Positions 6,009-56,484 of a stretch of DNA of 64,000 nt are shown piece after piece; positions within the stretch are counted from its first letter, which is position 1, and each line of letters opens with the position of its first letter. The position numbers were made by a program, and so were the translations under genes. Origin of the DNA: Hymenobacter sp. H14-R3 (GTDB taxonomy: Bacteria; Bacteroidota; Bacteroidia; Cytophagales; Hymenobacteraceae); NCBI RefSeq assembly GCF_030063445.1, contig NZ_JASITD010000005.1:186001-250000 (forward strand). The letters run 5' to 3'. Below the pieces are notes generated by a model. It was not told where the DNA came from and searched no databases. It saw nothing but the letters and a program-made list of their open reading frames with translations.

Positions 6009-6860
6009 ATGCGCACCGTCATTCAAAAGCACCGGGCCGTAAGCGCCCCCATTGCCGACCTCGTTACGTACCGGGCAATCCCCACGCAATCAGTCGAATA
6101 CATTGACCCGTTTTTGTTTCTGAACCACCACGGGCCGCAAGTGTACCGGGCTAATAACCGGGGCCTACCCTTCGGCCCGCATCCGCACCGGGGTTTCGAA
6201 ACGGTCACGTTTATTCTGGAAGGCGATATTCTGCACAAGGACAGCAGCGGCCACGAGAGCGTGATAAAAGCCGGCGGCATTCAGTGGATGACGGCCGGCG
6301 CGGGCCTCATCCACGCCGAAGTGTCGTCCGATGAGTTCAAGAAAACGGGTGGGCCACTCGAAATCTTGCAGCTTTGGGTGAACCTGCCGGCGAAGTTCAA
6401 GCTGATTGAGCCGCGCTACATTGGCCTGCAAGCCAACGAGATACCCGTAACGGAGCTGGCTGCCGGCGTAACCGCGCACGCGGTATCGGGCAATTGGTCG
6501 GGCACCGCCGGGGCCGTGCAGCCGCTGGCCGACGTGGCTTTGGCCTGGCTCGACCTGGCGGCGGGCGCGGCGGTGACGCTGCCCATTGCGGCCAGCCGCA
6601 GTGTATTCTTCTACGTGGTAAGCGGTAGCGTGCGCGTAAACGGCACCGAAGCGTTTGCCCGCGAGCTGGTCGAGTTTACTTATGATGGCGACGAGCTGGT
6701 AATTAAAGCATTGGCTACCAGCGTGTTGCTACTAGGCCACGCCGAGCCGTTTGGTGAGCCGGTGGTGTCGGGCGGGCCGTTTGTGATGAATACGGAGGCC
6801 GAAATCGAGCAGGCGTACACCGATTATCAGCAGGGGAAATTTGGCACCTGGAACGGGTGA
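6009..6860 (+). CDS. Pirin family protein (bicupin, quercetin dioxygenase-like)
   Basis: A 283-residue bicupin. The N-terminal cupin holds the full metal site of pirins: His58 and His60 in PHPHRGFETVTF, and His102 and Glu104 in AGLIHAE. Some bacterial pirins oxidise quercetin; others bind regulators or enzymes, so the role is open. It is separated from the glycosidase by 27 bases and could be co-transcribed. It is followed one base after its stop codon by a GTAG-type repeat pair. Confidence 0.9.
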   Translation: MRTVIQKHRAVSAPIADLVTYRAIPTQSVEYIDPFLFLNHHGPQVYRANNRGLPFGPHPHRGFETVTFILEGDILHKDSSGHESVIKAGGIQWMTAGAGLIHAEVSSDEFKKTGGPLEILQLWVNLPAKFKLIEPRYIGLQANEIPVTELAAGVTAHAVSGNWSGTAGAVQPLADVALAWLDLAAGAAVTLPIAASRSVFFYVVSGSVRVNGTEAFARELVEFTYDGDELVIKALATSVLLLGHAEPFGEPVVSGGPFVMNTEAEIEQAYTDYQQGKFGTWNG

Positions 6861-6861
6861 G

Positions 6862-6939
6862 GTAGCGTGGACTCTGCGAGTCCGCGCGTGGGGTCATTGA
6901 CCAACGTTACCACGCGCGGACTCGCAGAGTCCACGCTAC
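6862..6939. repeat. Paired REP element (BIME), GTAG family A
   Basis: GTAGCGTGGACTC at 6862 is inverted at the other end (GAGTCCACGCTAC ending at 6939). The 30-bp arms each contain a palindrome (GGACTCtgcGAGTCC). It lies one base after the pirin stop codon and would terminate or insulate that gene from the aromatic operon. Confidence 0.8.
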
Positions 6940-6944
6940 GGCGC

Positions 6945-6974
6945 TTGGAGATTTAGAATTCCTGCCTACCTTGC
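6945..6974 (+). promoter_or_regulatory. Probable promoter of the aromatic amino acid operon
   Basis: TTGG at 6945-6948, an 18-base gap and TACCTTGC at 6967-6974 resemble the -33/-7 pair of Bacteroidota, with the -7 one base short of TAnnTTTG. It sits 20 bases before the leader peptide ATG. A similar TATCTTGC occurs before fadE. Confidence 0.45.
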
Positions 6975-6994
6975 CACCCAGTTCGACAGATATC

Positions 6995-7048
6995 ATGTTC
7001 ACCGCCCGCTACTTTTTTGGCTTCTATTATTTTACGCCTCCCGCGTAG
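6995..7048 (+). CDS. Phe/Tyr-rich leader peptide of the pheA operon attenuator
   Basis: A 17-codon reading frame, MFTARYFFGFYYFTPPA, in which eight residues are Phe or Tyr (seven of them between residues 6 and 13), ending in TAG. It resembles the E. coli pheL leader in style. It is followed by mutually exclusive hairpins and then pheA. The mixture of Phe and Tyr codons fits an operon whose products feed both amino acids. The stop codon overlaps the 5' arm of the antiterminator (7047-7055), so a ribosome that finishes the peptide would cover that arm and allow termination. Inference from sequence alone, but every expected part is in the right order. Confidence 0.8.
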   Translation: MFTARYFFGFYYFTPPA

Positions 7049-7100
7049 AACGAGTCGCCATGTAGCTAAGCCACTGAGATTTAGCAGCGCCACTCGTTCT
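7047..7100 (+). promoter_or_regulatory. Antiterminator hairpin of the pheA attenuator
   Basis: AGAACGAGT at 7047-7055 pairs perfectly over nine bases with ACTCGTTCT at 7092-7100, and two further pairs follow a mismatch. The 3' arm is also the left arm and loop of the terminator at 7086-7112, so only one of the two can form. The 5' arm starts in the leader stop codon. Confidence 0.72.
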
Positions 7101-7118
7101 TCGGGTGGCGCTTTTTTT
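7086..7118 (+). terminator. Attenuator terminator before pheA
   Basis: AGCGCCACTCG (7086-7096) pairs with CGGGTGGCGCT (7102-7112) apart from one G-T wobble. The hairpin ends in seven T. It lies 38 bases after the leader peptide stop and 45 bases before the pheA start. Confidence 0.82.
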
Positions 7119-7162
7119 ATGCGTTTCAGCTTTGTAGCCAGCTACTTCAAGCACCAAGCACT

Positions 7163-8080
7163 ATGTATCAAGCACCAGCAAGCGTTGCCATTCAGGGTTT
7201 CCAAGGCAGCTTCCACGAAGTAGCGGCCCGCCAGTATTTCGGGGCGGCCCCGGCGCTGAATTTCTGCGCCACCTTTGGCGAAGTGGTGGCCCAGGTAGCC
7301 GACGGCCGCGCCGAGGCGGCGCTCATGGCCATGGAAAACTCGCTGGCGGGCAGCATCTTACCTAATTATCTGCTGCTGGAGCGCGCCCACCTCACCATCA
7401 CGGGCGAGGTGTACCTGCCCATCCACCAGCACCTGCTGGTGCTGCCCGGCACCACGCTGGCCAACATCCGGGCCGTGCACTCGCACCCCATGGCCCTGCG
7501 CCAGTGCGGCGACTTCCTGAGCCAACACCCCCACTGGCAACTAGTTGAAACCGAAGACACTGGCCTCAGCGCCCAGTTGCTGGCCCAGCGCCGCCCGGCG
7601 GGCGTGGCCGTAGTAGCCGGCGCGCAGGCCGCCGAGGCCTTCGGCCTGGAAATTCTGGCTCCCGCCATCAACGACGACCCCAGTAACTACACCCGCTTCC
7701 TGGTGTTGGAGTGCGCCGCCGAGGCCCAGCCGGTGGCCCAGCCCGATAAGGCATCGCTGTATTTCTACACTTCGCACGCGCCGGGCATGCTGGCGCGGGT
7801 GCTCACGCTGGTAGCCAGCCACGGCCTGAATTTGAGCAAGTTGCAGTCGTGCCCGCGCCCCAGCCAGCCCTGGCACTACGGCTTCCACGCCGACGTGGAG
7901 TTTGGCGCGCCCGCCCAGCTGGCGGCCCTGCTGGCCGAGCTGCCCGCCGTGACGGAGGAGCTGCGGGTGCTGGGCGCCTACGAGCGCGGCAGCATGGATT
8001 TCAGGCAGGAGTTTTCCGCGCCAGTTGTCATTGCGGGCGCAGCGAAGCAATCGCATCAGCACGACCCGATAGAACGATAA
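7163..8080 (+). CDS. pheA: Prephenate dehydratase with ACT domain
   Basis: This converts prephenate to phenylpyruvate, the Phe branch-point reaction. Length is 305 residues. The catalytic half shows ENSLAGSI and the TRF catalytic motif in NYTRFLVLE (about residues 176-182). The ACT domain follows from about residue 197 (LYFYTSHAPGMLARVL) with an ESRP-like loop (SCPRP), the usual site for feedback inhibition by Phe. It is the first structural gene after the attenuator. The last 19 codons (VVIAGAAKQSHQHDPIER and the preceding residue) are read from the left arm and spacer of an inverted repeat, so the natural C-terminus was probably nearer QEFSAP. Confidence 0.93.
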   Translation: MYQAPASVAIQGFQGSFHEVAARQYFGAAPALNFCATFGEVVAQVADGRAEAALMAMENSLAGSILPNYLLLERAHLTITGEVYLPIHQHLLVLPGTTLANIRAVHSHPMALRQCGDFLSQHPHWQLVETEDTGLSAQLLAQRRPAGVAVVAGAQAAEAFGLEILAPAINDDPSNYTRFLVLECAAEAQPVAQPDKASLYFYTSHAPGMLARVLTLVASHGLNLSKLQSCPRPSQPWHYGFHADVEFGAPAQLAALLAELPAVTEELRVLGAYERGSMDFRQEFSAPVVIAGAAKQSHQHDPIER

Positions 8081-8132
8081 GAATTCAACGATTTCGTGCT
8101 GATGCGATTGCTTCGCTGCGCGCGCAATGACA
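8026..8132. repeat. Inverted repeat overlapping the 3' end of pheA
   Basis: 39-bp arms at 8026-8064 and 8094-8132 are inverted copies with one mismatch; the outer ends read TGTCATTGCG. The left arm is translated as the pheA C-terminus. The element fills nearly the whole gap to the aminotransferase gene. Confidence 0.85.
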
Positions 8133-8157
8133 GCCGATTATCTAAGTAGCTAGAAAA

Positions 8158-9363
8158 ATGCAAGTTTCCACCGCCAGCCGCCTGGCCCACACCGGCGAAT
8201 ACTACTTCTCGCGCAAGCTGCGCGAGCTGGCCGCCCTCAACGCGGCCGGGGCCAATATCATCAGCCTGGGCATCGGCAGCCCCGATTTGCCGCCGCACCC
8301 GCGCGTGGTGGCGGCGCTGGCGGCCACCGCCGCCCAGCCCAACGCCCACGGCTACCAGAGCTACCAGGGCACGCCCGCGCTGCGCCAGGCCATGGCCGGC
8401 TTCTACCAAAAAAGCTACGGCGTGGCCCTCGACCCCGCCACCGAAGTGCTGCCCCTGGCTGGCTCCAAAGAGGGCCTGATGCACATTGGCATGACCTTTC
8501 TGGAGGCCGGCGACGCGGTGCTCATCCCCAACCCCGGCTACCCCACCTACCGCGCGGTGGCCGAAATCTGCGGGGCCGAGGTGCGCGACTACGACCTGAC
8601 CGCCGCCACCGGCTGGCTGCCCGACCTGGAAGCCCTGGCCCAGAGCGACTTGCGCCGCGTGAAGCTGATGCTCGTCAACTACCCGCACATGCCCACCGGC
8701 ACGCCGGCCAGCCCCGAGTTTCTGACCAAGCTGGTTGAGTTTGCCACGGAGCACGGCATTATGCTGGTGCACGACAACCCCTACGGCTTCGTGCTGAACG
8801 AAACGCCGCCCACCAGTCTGCTCAGTATTCCGGGCGCCAGGGAAGTGGCGTTGGAGCTTAACTCGCTGAGCAAGAGCCATAACCTGGCCGGCTGGCGCGT
8901 GGGCATGCTGGTGGGCCGCGCCGATTGGCTCACCGAGGTGCTGCGCTTCAAGAGCAACATGGATTCGGGCGTGTTCCTGGGTATTCAACAGGCGGCGATA
9001 GCGGCGCTGGCGCTGGGTGAGGAGTGGTTTGCAGAATTGAACGCCACCTACCGCGCCCGGCGCGAGCTGGTGCGCGAACTGCTGGCGGCGCTGGGCTGCG
9101 AGGCCGCGCCGGGCCAAACGGGCCTGTTCGTTTGGGCCGCCGTGCCGCCGCAGTACGCCGATGGCTACGCCCTGAGCGACGCCGTGCTGGCCGAGGCGCG
9201 GGTTTTTCTGACGCCCGGCGGCATCTTCGGCAGCAACGGCAACGGCTACATCCGGGCCAGCCTGTGCCAGCCCGAAAGCGTGCTGCGCGAGGCGCTGGAA
9301 CGGGTTGAAAGTATGAAAGTAACTCATGCAGACCGCCGGGTAGCAGCTCGCAAGCAGCAGTAA
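8158..9363 (+). CDS. Class I/II aminotransferase, probably aromatic
   Basis: A 401-residue fold-type I PLP aminotransferase. The PLP Lys is in NSLSKSHNLAGWRVG (Lys239), followed by the conserved Arg247. NYPHMPTG stands where NPxNPTG is usual, and HDNPYG carries the PLP-pyridine Asp (about residue 206). Sequence style is that of the LL-DAP/aspartate branch, but its place between pheA and tyrA argues for transamination of phenylpyruvate and hydroxyphenylpyruvate. The substrate assignment is inferred from context. Confidence 0.85.
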   Translation: MQVSTASRLAHTGEYYFSRKLRELAALNAAGANIISLGIGSPDLPPHPRVVAALAATAAQPNAHGYQSYQGTPALRQAMAGFYQKSYGVALDPATEVLPLAGSKEGLMHIGMTFLEAGDAVLIPNPGYPTYRAVAEICGAEVRDYDLTAATGWLPDLEALAQSDLRRVKLMLVNYPHMPTGTPASPEFLTKLVEFATEHGIMLVHDNPYGFVLNETPPTSLLSIPGAREVALELNSLSKSHNLAGWRVGMLVGRADWLTEVLRFKSNMDSGVFLGIQQAAIAALALGEEWFAELNATYRARRELVRELLAALGCEAAPGQTGLFVWAAVPPQYADGYALSDAVLAEARVFLTPGGIFGSNGNGYIRASLCQPESVLREALERVESMKVTHADRRVAARKQQ

Positions 9364-9438
9364 ATCAATCGTCAGCAACGAGGTGAGCGAGGTGCTTCCC
9401 TTCGGTCTGCACGACGTGCAGGTAATAAGTGTATTAGT

Positions 9439-10287
9439 ATGACTATCACCATAATCGGCCTGGGCCTCATCGGCGGCTCGCTGGCGCTCAGCCTGCGCCA
9501 GCACGGGCTAGCCACGCGGCTCATCGGCGTGGAGGCCAACCCCGCTTACGCCCGCCGGGCGCTGGAGCTGGGCCTGGTCGATGAAATCGGCCCCGACCTG
9601 GCGGCGGCGGTGGCCCCGGCAGCCCTCGTTATTGTGGCCGTGCCCATGGATGCCATGCTGACGGTATTACCGCAAGTGCTTGATTTAGTAACTGATAAGC
9701 AGCTGGTTATCGACGTTGGCTCGACCAAGGGCAACCTGCTGGCGGCCGTGGCCGGGCACCCGCGCCGGGGCCGCTTCGTGGCCGTGCACCCCATGGCCGG
9801 CACCGAATACTCGGGCCCCGATGCGGCGGTGAGTGGCTTATTCGAAGGCAAAACGCTGGTAGTCTGCGATGCTGCCGCCAGCGACCCCGACGCCGTGGCC
9901 ACGGTGGAGGCCCTGTTTCGGGCCGTGCCCATGCGGGTGCTGCACCTCGGCGCGGCCGACCACGACCTGCACACGGCCTACGTGTCGCACATCTCGCACC
10001 TCACCTCGTTTGCGCTGGCCCTCACGGTGTTGGAGAAGGAGCAGCGCGGCGAGCAGCGCATTTTTGACCTAGCCGGCGGCGGCTTTGCCTCCACCGTGCG
10101 GCTGGCCAAGAGTGCGCCGGCTACCTGGGTGCCCATCTTCCGCCAAAACCGGGAAAACGTGCTCGATGTGCTCGATGAGCACCTGGTGCAGCTGCATAAG
10201 CTGCGCGAACTGCTGGCCACCGAGGATTACGTCGGGCTGACGCAGCAGCTGGAACACGCCAACGAGATAAAGAAAATAATTCCCTGA
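9439..10287 (+). CDS. tyrA: Prephenate dehydrogenase
   Basis: NAD(P)-dependent oxidative decarboxylation of prephenate to 4-hydroxyphenylpyruvate, the Tyr branch. The 282-residue protein begins with the dinucleotide motif IIGLGLIGGSLA (residues 4-15). The HPMAGTEYSGP segment carries the conserved His and the Gly-rich substrate loop; the rest is the helical dimerisation domain. No ACT domain is present. It is third in the aromatic operon, 75 bases after the aminotransferase. Confidence 0.93.
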   Translation: MTITIIGLGLIGGSLALSLRQHGLATRLIGVEANPAYARRALELGLVDEIGPDLAAAVAPAALVIVAVPMDAMLTVLPQVLDLVTDKQLVIDVGSTKGNLLAAVAGHPRRGRFVAVHPMAGTEYSGPDAAVSGLFEGKTLVVCDAAASDPDAVATVEALFRAVPMRVLHLGAADHDLHTAYVSHISHLTSFALALTVLEKEQRGEQRIFDLAGGGFASTVRLAKSAPATWVPIFRQNRENVLDVLDEHLVQLHKLRELLATEDYVGLTQQLEHANEIKKIIP

Positions 10288-10290
10288 AAT

Positions 10291-10373
10291 GTAAAACGGA
10301 GTGCCACTCCGTTTCCGCTCGGCCAGCTTGTGCGGCCCGTGCTTACGCCAAACGGAGTGTCACTCCGTTTTAC
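10291..10373. repeat. Inverted repeat with palindromic arms between tyrA and aroF-like gene
   Basis: The unit AAACGGAGTGcCACTCCGTTT occurs at about 10294-10314 and again at 10350-10370 (with T for the central c). Each is a nearly perfect palindrome, and the whole is bounded by GTAAAA and TTTTAC. The hairpins could end or slow transcription between tyrA and the last gene of the operon. Confidence 0.75.
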
Positions 10374-10401
10374 TTCGCTTTCACAACCAACTCATACCCC
10401 C

Positions 10402-11472
10402 ATGTTCAACGACCTCTTCAACCGCAAACCCGAGGATAAGCCCTTCCTCATCTCTGGCCCGTGCTCGGCCGAAACCGAGGAGCAGGTGCTCGAAACCTGC
10501 CAGCGCCTGGCCGCCACCGGTAAGGTGCAGGCCCTGCGCGCCGGTATCTGGAAGCCCCGCACCAAGCCCGGCGGCTTCGAAGGGGTGGGGGCCAAGGGCC
10601 TGCCGTGGCTCAAAAAAGCCAGCGAGCTCACCGGCCTGCCGGTGGCCGTGGAAGTAGCCACCGCCAAGCACGTGGAGGACTGCCTGGCCTTTGGTGTGGA
10701 CCTGGTGTGGGTGGGCGCGCGCACCACGGGCAACCCGTTTTCGGTGCAGGAAATCGCCAATGCCCTGCGCGGCGTCGATATTCCGGTGCTGGTCAAAAAC
10801 CCCATTCACCCCGAGCTGGAGCTGTGGGTGGGGGCCATCGAGCGCCTGCAAAAAGCTGGTTTGAAGCAGGTTGGCATGATTCACCGGGGCTTTTCGAGCT
10901 ACGGCAACACCGACTTCCGCAATGCGCCGATGTGGCACCTGCCCATCGAGATGAAGCGCCGGATGCCCGAGCTGCCCATCCTCAACGACCCCAGCCACAT
11001 CTGCGGCCGGCGCGATACGTTGTTTGCCGTGGCGCAGCAGGCGCTCGACCTCGACTTCGACGGCACCATGATTGAGAGCCACATCGACCCCGACAACGCC
11101 TGGAGCGATGCCAAGCAGCAAATCACGCCCGAGGTGCTGGGCCAACTCATCACCAACCTGGTGTGGCGCCACGAGACCACCGACAAGGCCGAGTACCTGA
11201 CTGCCCTGGCCGGCCTGCGCGAGCAAATCAACAACCTCGACGCCGAGGTGATGCAGCTGCTGGGCCGCCGCATGGCCGTGGCCGAAAAAATCGGGCAGTA
11301 CAAGAAAGACAACGACATTACCATCCTGCAAACCGCCCGCCTCAACGAGATTCTGGAGCGCAGCAAGCGCCAGGGTGCCCAGGTGGGCCTCACGGAAGAT
11401 TTCGTGGAGCGCTACCTGGAAGCCGTTCACCTGGAGTCGGTTATGCGCCAGGAGCGGGTAATGAACGGGTAG
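10402..11472 (+). CDS. Bifunctional DAHP synthase / chorismate mutase
   Basis: A 356-residue fusion. The N-terminal part is a type I-beta (KDOPS-like) DAHP synthase, with ISGPCSAETEEQ near residue 17 and KPGGFEGVG. The C-terminal part from about residue 265 is an AroQ-type chorismate mutase (LREQINNLDAEVMQLLGRR ... IGQYKKDN). Such fusions make both the first shikimate-pathway reaction and the entry to Phe/Tyr, and the mutase domain usually acts as the allosteric sensor. ATG 10402 is chosen because the upstream in-frame codons from 10330 fall in the repeat. It ends the aromatic operon. Confidence 0.93.
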   Translation: MFNDLFNRKPEDKPFLISGPCSAETEEQVLETCQRLAATGKVQALRAGIWKPRTKPGGFEGVGAKGLPWLKKASELTGLPVAVEVATAKHVEDCLAFGVDLVWVGARTTGNPFSVQEIANALRGVDIPVLVKNPIHPELELWVGAIERLQKAGLKQVGMIHRGFSSYGNTDFRNAPMWHLPIEMKRRMPELPILNDPSHICGRRDTLFAVAQQALDLDFDGTMIESHIDPDNAWSDAKQQITPEVLGQLITNLVWRHETTDKAEYLTALAGLREQINNLDAEVMQLLGRRMAVAEKIGQYKKDNDITILQTARLNEILERSKRQGAQVGLTEDFVERYLEAVHLESVMRQERVMNG

Positions 11473-11489
11473 GCGAAGTAGCTCCACGC

Positions 11490-11636
11490 CCGGCCCCTCC
11501 CCTGCGGGGGTGGGGAGCCAGACGAATTTGCCGATGCGTTACTGTAGCTTTCATCCCCCAGGTAAGAGGGGTTTTGGCAGACGAACGATTGCGTTGCCCC
11601 GGCTCCCCTCCCCCGCAGGGGAGGGGCCGGGGGGGT
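11490..11636. repeat. C-rich inverted repeat
   Basis: GGCCCCTCCCCTGCGGGGG near 11492 is inverted as CCCCCGCAGGGGAGGGGCC near 11631, with additional pairing of GGGGAGCC and GGCTCCCC. It resembles the repeat at 4474-4643. It lies between the aromatic operon and the next gene and would form a strong hairpin. Confidence 0.7.
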
Positions 11637-11661
11637 GCCGTTCGTGCCGTACTTTCCAGCA

Positions 11662-12693
11662 ATGAAAAAAAATACCCGATTCCTCCTGCTAGCCGCCGCG
11701 CTGCTGGCTGGCTGCCAGGCCCAGGCGCAACGCCTGCCCAAAGCCCAGCACGAGCTGCTGGCCACCCCCACCACCGTGGCCTGGGGCTACTACTCAGCCG
11801 ATGCGCCGCCGGTGATGCGCATCAAATCGGGCGAGACGGTGCAGGTGCACACGCTCCTTACCTCCAGCCCCACGCGGCTCGAAGGGGCGGGCGTGGCCCC
11901 GGCGCAGGTAGAGCAGTCGCTGCGCGATATCTATGAGAAAGTGACCAACAAGGGGCCGGGCGGGCATATCCTCACCGGGCCCATTTTTGTGGAAGGGGCC
12001 GAGCCGGGCGACGTGCTGGAGGTGCGCATCAAGGCCATTGAGCTGGCTATTCCGTACGCCTACAACGGGTTTGGGCCGAAGAGCGGGTTTATTCCCGAAG
12101 ACTTTGGCTACGCCAAGATGAAGATTATTCCGCTCGATAAGAAGCGGATGGTGGCCGACTTTGCGCCCGGCATTGAGCTGCCGCTGCACCCGTTTTTTGG
12201 GAGCATGGGCGTGGCCCCGCCGCCCGCGATGGGCCGGGTAAACAGCGCGCCACCCGGCATATTCGGCGGCAACCTCGACAACAAAGACCTGGTGGTGGGC
12301 ACCACGCTCTACCTGCCGGTGCACGTGCCGGGCGCACTATTCTTTGTGGGCGACGGCCATGCTGGCCAGGGTAACGGTGAGGTCGATATCACCGCCCTCG
12401 AAACTTCCCTGACCGGCAACCTGGAGTTTATCGTGCACAAAGACACGCACTTAGCCCTGCCCCGTGCCGAAACGCCGACCCACTACATCAGCATGGGCCT
12501 GGATGAGGATTTGACCCTAGCCGGCAAGCAGGCCGTGCGCGAAATGATAGCTTTCCTGATGAAAACCAAGGGCATGACCAAGGACGATGCCTACATGCTG
12601 TGCAGCGTGGCCGGCGACCTCAACGTGACGCAAGTGGTAGACGGCACCCGCGGCGCGCACATGCTGCTACCCAAAAGCATTTTCAAAAAGTAG
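11662..12693 (+). CDS. Acetamidase/formamidase family protein, probable lipoprotein
   Basis: A 343-residue member of the FmdA/AmdA amidase family, which hydrolyses short amides to carboxylate and ammonia. The signal sequence ends in LLAGC (Cys18), so lipid anchoring is likely. Family segments include GGHILTGPIFVEGAEPGD, the loop around PLHPFFGSMGVAP, and the metal-site region FVGDGHAGQGNGE. ATG 11662 begins the signal peptide; an in-frame codon at 11635 would add nine residues from the repeat. The TAG stop codon lies inside the GTAG end of the following repeat pair. Confidence 0.87.
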   Translation: MKKNTRFLLLAAALLAGCQAQAQRLPKAQHELLATPTTVAWGYYSADAPPVMRIKSGETVQVHTLLTSSPTRLEGAGVAPAQVEQSLRDIYEKVTNKGPGGHILTGPIFVEGAEPGDVLEVRIKAIELAIPYAYNGFGPKSGFIPEDFGYAKMKIIPLDKKRMVADFAPGIELPLHPFFGSMGVAPPPAMGRVNSAPPGIFGGNLDNKDLVVGTTLYLPVHVPGALFFVGDGHAGQGNGEVDITALETSLTGNLEFIVHKDTHLALPRAETPTHYISMGLDEDLTLAGKQAVREMIAFLMKTKGMTKDDAYMLCSVAGDLNVTQVVDGTRGAHMLLPKSIFKK

Positions 12694-56410: not shown

Positions 56411-56484
56411 GTAGCGTGGACTCTGTGAGTCCGTGCGTGGGTTGTATCAGCGTGCTACGCGCGGACTCACAGAGTCCACGCTAC
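56411..56484. repeat. Paired REP element (BIME), GTAG family A
   Basis: GTAGCGTGGACTCTGTGAGT at the left, with the complementary arm ending GAGTCCACGCTAC at 56484. Each arm has the GGACTC...GAGTCC palindrome. It lies between era and der, one base from the era stop codon. Confidence 0.8.

Follow-up and report, generated by a model that had tools for sequence, protein, structure and literature searches.

The locus and its leader region

The window, by which we mean the whole 64-kb stretch of Hymenobacter sp. H14-R3 DNA analysed here, carries an operon for aromatic amino acids that starts with pheA and is preceded by a short leader region. All four genes of the operon have family-model matches, and among them only the prephenate dehydrogenase clears a curated NCBIfam cut-off:

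7163-8080, + strand: pheA, prephenate dehydratase, the first gene of the operon (NCBIfam below cut-off; Pfam PF00800 above cut-off)
8158-9363, + strand: class-I aminotransferase (NCBIfam below cut-offs)
9439-10287, + strand: tyrA, prephenate dehydrogenase (NCBIfam above cut-off)
10405-11472, + strand: DAHP synthase/chorismate mutase (NCBIfam below cut-off; start codon picked by us)

Directly upstream of the leader region lies a pirin gene (6009-6860, + strand; Pfam Pirin). The interval between this gene and the leader promoter contains a perfect 30-nt inverted repeat with 18 nt between its arms (6862-6939), of which the window holds a near-identical second copy at 56412-56483; it is perhaps a repeated palindromic element. 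Sub-threshold Rfam matches to mir-H4 and HCV (6857-6944) coincide with this perfect palindrome and were rejected. The leader region itself (6945-7118) is made up of the following features:

6945-6974, + strand: predicted promoter (TTG at 6945-6947, 19 nt, then TACCTTGC at 6967-6974)
6995-7048, + strand: leader peptide ORF of 17 codons, MFTARYFFGFYYFTPPA followed by a stop, with five Phe and three Tyr codons
7022-7033, + strand: probable control codons F10, Y11, Y12, and F13
7031-7049, + strand: hairpin 1:2, pairing 7031-7037 with 7043-7049 (predicted fold of -7.1 kcal/mol; covariation in relatives)
7047-7055, + strand: segment 2, the antiterminator 5' arm, AGAACGAGT (covaries with segment 3)
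7065-7085, + strand: inner hairpin GCTAA/TTAGC, which lengthens the antiterminator (predicted fold of 7046-7101, -18.9 kcal/mol)
7092-7100, + strand: segment 3, the antiterminator 3' arm and at the same time the terminator 5' arm and loop, ACTCGTTCT (covaries with both partners)
7086-7118, + strand: intrinsic terminator 3:4, AGCGCCACTCGTTCTTCGGGTGGCGCT followed by T's (-20.9 kcal/mol)

Judging by the promoter-like sequence, transcription would start at about 6979. The TTG at 6945-6947 and its spacing are what we take to be a -33 element of the Bacteroidota type, and a sigma-70 promoter scan of the region gave no match. The box TACCTTGC (6967-6974) matches TAnnTTGY and nearly TAnnTTTG at -12 to -5, the motifs and the position given for the -7 box in the available part of PMC9723704. 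For Flavobacterium psychrophilum, the same part of that paper (PMC9723704) calls TAnnTTGY motif SM5 and distinguishes it from the sigma-A box TAnnTTTG; the box found here is of the SM5 type, and the operon may use this promoter class.

Phe or Tyr is specified by 8 of the 17 leader codons. Among the 1023 small ORFs of the window (distinct stops, 8-40 aa, both strands), the leader ORF is the sole case with at least six F/Y per ten residues, of which it has seven. Upstream of it, a Shine-Dalgarno-like sequence was looked for and none was seen. The control codons were placed at 7022-7033 by means of a ribosome footprint length that we assumed.

Hairpin 1:2 can be extended by a terminal U-A pair (7030/7050). 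The stop codon of the leader (7046-7048) overlaps segment 2, which pairs perfectly with segment 3 over 9 bp (7047-7055 with 7092-7100), and the terminator hairpin spans 7086-7112, with its U tract running to 7118. Antiterminator and terminator are mutually exclusive, since the terminator 5' arm is common to both, and a repeat finder reports the two alternatives (7044-7058/7089-7103, 87%; 7086-7096/7102-7112, 91%). When the stretch 6961-7130 was folded, 4 of 200 shuffles were at least equal to it (z -2.48), and the 2:3 duplex was equalled by 1 of 100 shuffles. The terminator by itself proves little, as five terminators were found in 6850-11700 where shuffles lead one to expect 4.7.

Much of this anatomy had been given in a preliminary description. 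Direct reading and a script return the same 17-codon frame, the script and the repeat finder recover both the perfect 9-bp antiterminator and the terminator that shares its 3' arm, and the overlap of the stop with the antiterminator 5' arm as well as the position before pheA, aminotransferase, tyrA, and DAHP synthase/chorismate mutase stand as described. Absent from it were the 1:2 hairpin, the promoter, and the tandem leaders of relatives.

Conservation and covariation among relatives

A search for pheA in 120 Hymenobacter genomes matched 107, and in a family sample of 150 genomes it matched 118, of which 61 lie outside the genus. Upstream DNA was examined for all 107 genus loci and for 38 of the 61 others, and an F/Y leader lies at most 450 nt upstream of pheA in all of these 145 family loci (null: Markov shuffles, 19/1450; antisense, 0/145). 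The loci together hold 234 leaders, each of which has its own terminator (a hairpin with a T tract, located ahead of the following leader or of pheA), the weakest at -11.0 kcal/mol; this family-wide count has no shuffled null beside it.

More distant loci (n = 80) were fetched as well, namely 26 of 80 from other families of the order, 27 of 35 from other orders of the class (omitting two of family f24, with a distant pheA, and six others), and 27 of 127 from other classes of the phylum. Leaders occur in 35 of the 80 (order 4/26, class 27/27, phylum 4/27), against 19/800 in shuffles and 2/80 in antisense, and all 36 leaders of these wider loci have their own terminator. Since 22 of the 26 order-level loci and 23 of the 27 from other classes have no leader at threshold, we do not claim it for the phylum as a whole. 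In pheA leaders of other families, Trp codons stand in or beside the Phe/Tyr run (L147, L149, L181, L182, L184, and others), as if these leaders read all three aromatic amino acids. Outside the operon, 16 of the listed matches of our own covariance model were read, and these contain terminators but no F/Y leader of the pheA type; the downstream gene was identified for two of the 16 and is asnA.

Within the window's own clade (18 sequences), conservation spans the block between promoter and U tract, both included, while the DNA on both sides varies, and the leader peptides show F/Y swaps. To follow the helices over a wider range, we aligned 56 leader-1 blocks out of 99 distinct ones with MAFFT. 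Changes on both sides occur in 5 of 11 pairs of helix 3:4 (reached by 0/500 shuffles), 4 of 8 pairs of helix 1:2 (0/500), and 7 of 11 pairs of helix 2:3 (39/500), where the shuffle nulls keep the effect of relatedness among the sequences. The share of paired cells is 94.6% for 3:4, 79.2% for 1:2, and 81.0% for 2:3, the last two being understated in some rows because the alignment leaves segment 2 out of register between clades and sets the window-clade rows one column off for 1:2. For each of the three helices, the covariation score was reached by 0/500 shuffles, and slid versions score worse than the actual structure. Further pair types were reached by shuffles 164 times out of 500 for 3:4, 318 times for 2:3, and once for 1:2. 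As read from this alignment, helices 1:2 and 3:4 are clearly supported by covariation, and 2:3 less.

An exchange of arms between loci served as a second test of 2:3. Segments 2 and 3 of leader 1 pair at -14.9 kcal/mol with their own partners and at -11.2 kcal/mol with exchanged ones (0/5000; 28 representatives of 101), and with only six representatives the figure is 16/5000. Leader 2 gave 0/5000 with 44 representatives and no significant result at the strictest thinning (335/5000; 6 of 83), nor was the exchange significant for g3/g4/g6 (838/5000; 14 representatives of 34), where the arms vary little. Taken leader by leader, only 145 of the 234 family leaders have a 2:3 pairing that at most 5 of 100 shuffles equal.

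How the structures are kept can be seen at single positions. One base of segment 3 is an A in the window's clade, where it pairs with U in both partners, and a G in a sister clade, where its partner in segment 2 is a C. The peptide tail of the window's clade differs from that of the tandem clade (YFYATA versus YFTPPA), while the 1:2 stem is maintained through small compensating shifts. The preliminary description had pointed to the pheA upstream regions of relatives as the place to look for a conserved aromatic run and for compensatory changes: the run is there, with a terminator, in 107 genus and 38 further family genomes, and such changes are seen in the alternating hairpins, the 2:3 arms of leader 1 co-evolving.

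Gene loss and the proposed attenuation mechanism

Gene loss provides a natural test of what the leader senses. PF00800 is missing from 13 genus genomes (three genus controls and 14 reference genomes have it), of which four kept tyrA and nine lack it. The leader model, which was built from members of the searched set of genomes, has a strong match (E <=5.4e-12) in 111 of the 120 genomes, namely in every pheA-bearing genome (107) and in the four tyrA-only ones. Of the nine genomes lacking both pheA and tyrA, six have no leader match and three only weak ones, of which those in G001 and G006 were read and are no such leaders, the third being in G088 (E 0.007).

In the four tyrA-only genomes, the two leaders, each with its terminator, immediately precede aminotransferase, tyrA, and DAHP synthase. 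Summed over both leaders, these genomes have 3, 3, 3, and 4 Phe codons, compared with 6-13 (mean 8.6) in the tandem loci of g1 and g5 that have pheA (n = 83); their Tyr codons number 8, 9, 8, and 10, compared with 6-11 (mean 8.1) in the same set. Relaxed selection alone would not account for the persistence of the Tyr codons. The losses of pheA are few in number: three of the four genomes group in a single clade, and G021, on a long branch with unsure placement, is remote from them, so there were probably two separate cases. In G021 the Phe codons were lost mainly in leader 2, and leader 1 kept three. With genomes that have lost pheA, codon-specific sensing can be tested by evolutionary comparison and without experiments, an approach that could be extended to other attenuators.

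As a side observation, nine genus genomes have no match to a prephenate dehydratase or a tyrA-type prephenate dehydrogenase (G001, G003, G006, G022, G060, G088, G117, G097, and G098), suggesting that they may be auxotrophic for Phe and Tyr; seven of them are at least 99% complete and two are 81% complete.

We consider it very likely that the locus is a ribosome-mediated transcription attenuator of the trp/pheA type, which senses charged tRNA-Phe and tRNA-Tyr. A Phe/Tyr attenuator had already been proposed in the preliminary description, and the conservation, the covariation, and the drop in Phe codons on pheA loss all support it. Four other explanations can be set against this reading. The one that survives best, though we think it rather unlikely, keeps the identical anatomy and has mainly Phe sensed, the Tyr codons being tolerated look-alikes. 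It agrees with the excess of F over Y in window-type leaders (means 4.94 and 2.94, n = 18), but after pheA loss it is the Phe codons that fall, whereas the Tyr codons remain at 4-5 per leader and the leaders themselves persist before tyrA. Far less probable is a functional hydrophobic microprotein encoded by the ORF, with operon control as a secondary matter: the peptide's sequence and length are conserved within clades, yet its tail differs between clades while the RNA stem persists, F and Y interchange, and F codons drop once pheA is lost. We give still less credence to a terminator that merely ends the upstream pirin gene, next to an incidental F/Y ORF. That gene does lie directly upstream on the same strand, but the upstream DNA varies inside the clade where the block of promoter, leader, and terminator is constant, leader and terminator accompany pheA in 145 of 145 family loci, and the F/Y density of the ORF has no equal in the window. 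A metabolite-binding riboswitch or T-box governing the terminator would likewise account for a structured 5' region with a terminator, but it can practically be dismissed, as the window has no Rfam match at gathering score, the short region is filled by the ORF and the alternative arms, and the codon content tracks the gene content.

For the attenuator, anatomy, conservation, and covariation are read from sequence, and we infer that ribosomes pause, that Phe and Tyr levels are answered, and that transcripts terminate in the cell. RNA polymerase would begin near 6979, with a ribosome trailing it on the 17-codon leader. When Phe or Tyr is scarce, this ribosome would pause in the F/Y run, most likely at codons 10-13, where it would mask segment 1 (7031-7037) and leave segment 2 exposed; 2:3 would then pair before segment 4 exists, allowing read-through into pheA, aminotransferase, tyrA, and DAHP synthase. 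When both amino acids are abundant, the ribosome would arrive at the stop (7046) and mask segment 2, upon which 3:4 would form and the transcript would end at 7112-7118.

Equilibrium folding backs this switch only partly. For the full-length leader, the terminator is the predicted fold when the ribosome sits at Phe13, Tyr11, or the stop, and only a ribosome at Tyr6, where termination had been expected, yields 2:3; the equilibrium fold does not support F10-F13 as the control codons. We also folded the growing RNA, lengthened by two bases per step. With a ribosome over 7016-7046, 2:3 is complete (9/9 pairs) at RNA ends 7100-7110, and with one over 7031-7061 there are zero 2:3 pairs. The ribosome-free RNA passes through 2:3 as well (8-9 of 9 pairs at 7100-7110), so that the 1:2 hairpin is not clearly protective. 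In all three cases the terminator is complete from RNA end 7112; it prevails even when segment 1 is masked, which calls for a kinetic switch. The models support the idea that a ribosome at the stop would exclude 2:3 and that the outcome would be a race between structures. A race of this sort is described for known attenuators in the part of PMC1183508 available to us.

Tandem leaders and known systems

Most relatives in the genus have more than the single leader found at the window locus, where the tandem form does not occur. A strict filter finds two complete F/Y leaders, each with its own terminator, in 79 of the 107 genus loci, in all four loci of g5, and in 6 of the 17 of g3; one class-level locus (L177) also has two. 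Three further genus loci probably have two leaders: in L060 and L072 the second ORF is slightly under the strict filter, and in L044 the sequence and terminator of the second leader are present with no counted ORF.

The 25 genus loci with a single leader belong to two clades, 18 of them to the window's and seven to another. The aminotransferase tree (46 rows; three short rows excluded) includes 14 window-clade members, which group together with support 99/94. Since the tandem form is found in g5 and in the outlying L045, the simplest reading for the window's clade is that it lost the second leader. In the second clade (L055, L058, L061, L062, L066, L073, and L107), the peptide resembles leader 1 fused to a new tail (e.g., LPGSRAAVL), and this clade is perhaps an independent reduction of the tandem.

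Our overall reading, in which we have fair confidence, is that the genus norm is a double attenuator, i.e., two separately terminated switches in series for the same two amino acids. Read-through would then need two consecutive pauses, giving a steeper response; the window's clade would have been cut to one switch; and after pheA loss Phe codons would have been lost and Tyr codons kept, the codon content evolving with the operon product. The tandem form raises a testable question, namely what effect two same-signal attenuators in series have compared with one.

The pheA attenuator of E. coli and Salmonella (Rfam Phe_leader, RF01859) has, as the window does, a leader peptide before pheA, alternative hairpins, and an intrinsic terminator. 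RF01859 aligns over its full length (1-125) to window positions 6994-7118, and its score of 21.4 bits in the window (E 0.29) is below the gathering score of 55, so that despite the full-length match the locus is not a member. The window differs from the E. coli attenuator, furthermore, in its mixed Phe/Tyr codons and in preceding pheA, aminotransferase, tyrA, and DAHP synthase. pheA attenuation in E. coli and Salmonella is covered in the available part of PMC1183508. The window locus is a further case of this established mechanism, and we claim no novelty of mechanism.

Nor is the phylum without precedent. The preliminary description knew of no described case in the lineage, and this has to be corrected: in the part of PMC9723704 available to us, F. 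psychrophilum has a structured 5' element before pheA that is conserved in other Flavobacteriaceae genera and has no Rfam match, and 'strong clues' of leader-peptide attenuation are reported upstream of amino-acid operons. This element has the phylum, the place before pheA, and the lack of an Rfam family in common with the window; its description in that part of the paper (PMC9723704) mentions neither leader codons for pheA nor a double attenuator. The Bacteroid-trp motif (RF01692) is a candidate cis-regulatory RNA in Bacteroidetes according to the available part of PMC2864571. Its name points to trp genes, and it has no match at gathering score in the window. Work such as that of Vitreschak (2004) and Lopatovskaya (2010) reportedly predicts attenuators in Bacteroidetes/Chlorobi. 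Classical ribosome-mediated attenuation of aromatic synthesis is now indicated across a class of Bacteroidota, for which we found little in print, and a family of leaders is on hand for studying attenuation in this phylum.

For the tandem form, the closest parallel is Salmonella mgtCBR, whose tandem attenuators answer to different signals (ATP and proline) and which its authors call a 'singular example' in the available part of PMC3641672. Like most of the genus relatives, mgtCBR as described there has two short leader ORFs serially before one operon; in the genus, by contrast, both leaders are F/Y leaders and each has its own terminator, whereas the window itself has one leader. Among open-licence PMC papers, we found no report of two same-signal amino-acid attenuators in series, and the form seen in the relatives is probably new.

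Leader-like ORFs occur elsewhere in the window's own genome: MPFSATVSQSWWHSTFPKG, with Trp-Trp, before a chorismate-binding (trpE-type) gene (L263); MAAARRAPSPLGAAPQHHHHHL, with five His, before hisG (L261); and MPLLPVISVVIIPTLAG, with Ile/Val/Leu, before ilvD (L267). A terminator is visible for two of these three. No Thr/Ile leader was seen before homoserine dehydrogenase, where the flank of the 887-aa form may stop short of the gene start. Attenuation may be a habit of the genus. Finally, an Asn-rich leader ORF, MSFFSNNFFLNNSNNNNLFRDRKAIVQK, with eight Asn (seven in a relative), immediately precedes asnA, an aspartate-ammonia ligase gene (PF03590 above cut-off), with a hairpin and T tract in between; the two loci are L314 (minus strand, from 1015, in reverse coordinates) and L315 (1019-1165). 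By its sequence, this leader is likely an Asn attenuator.
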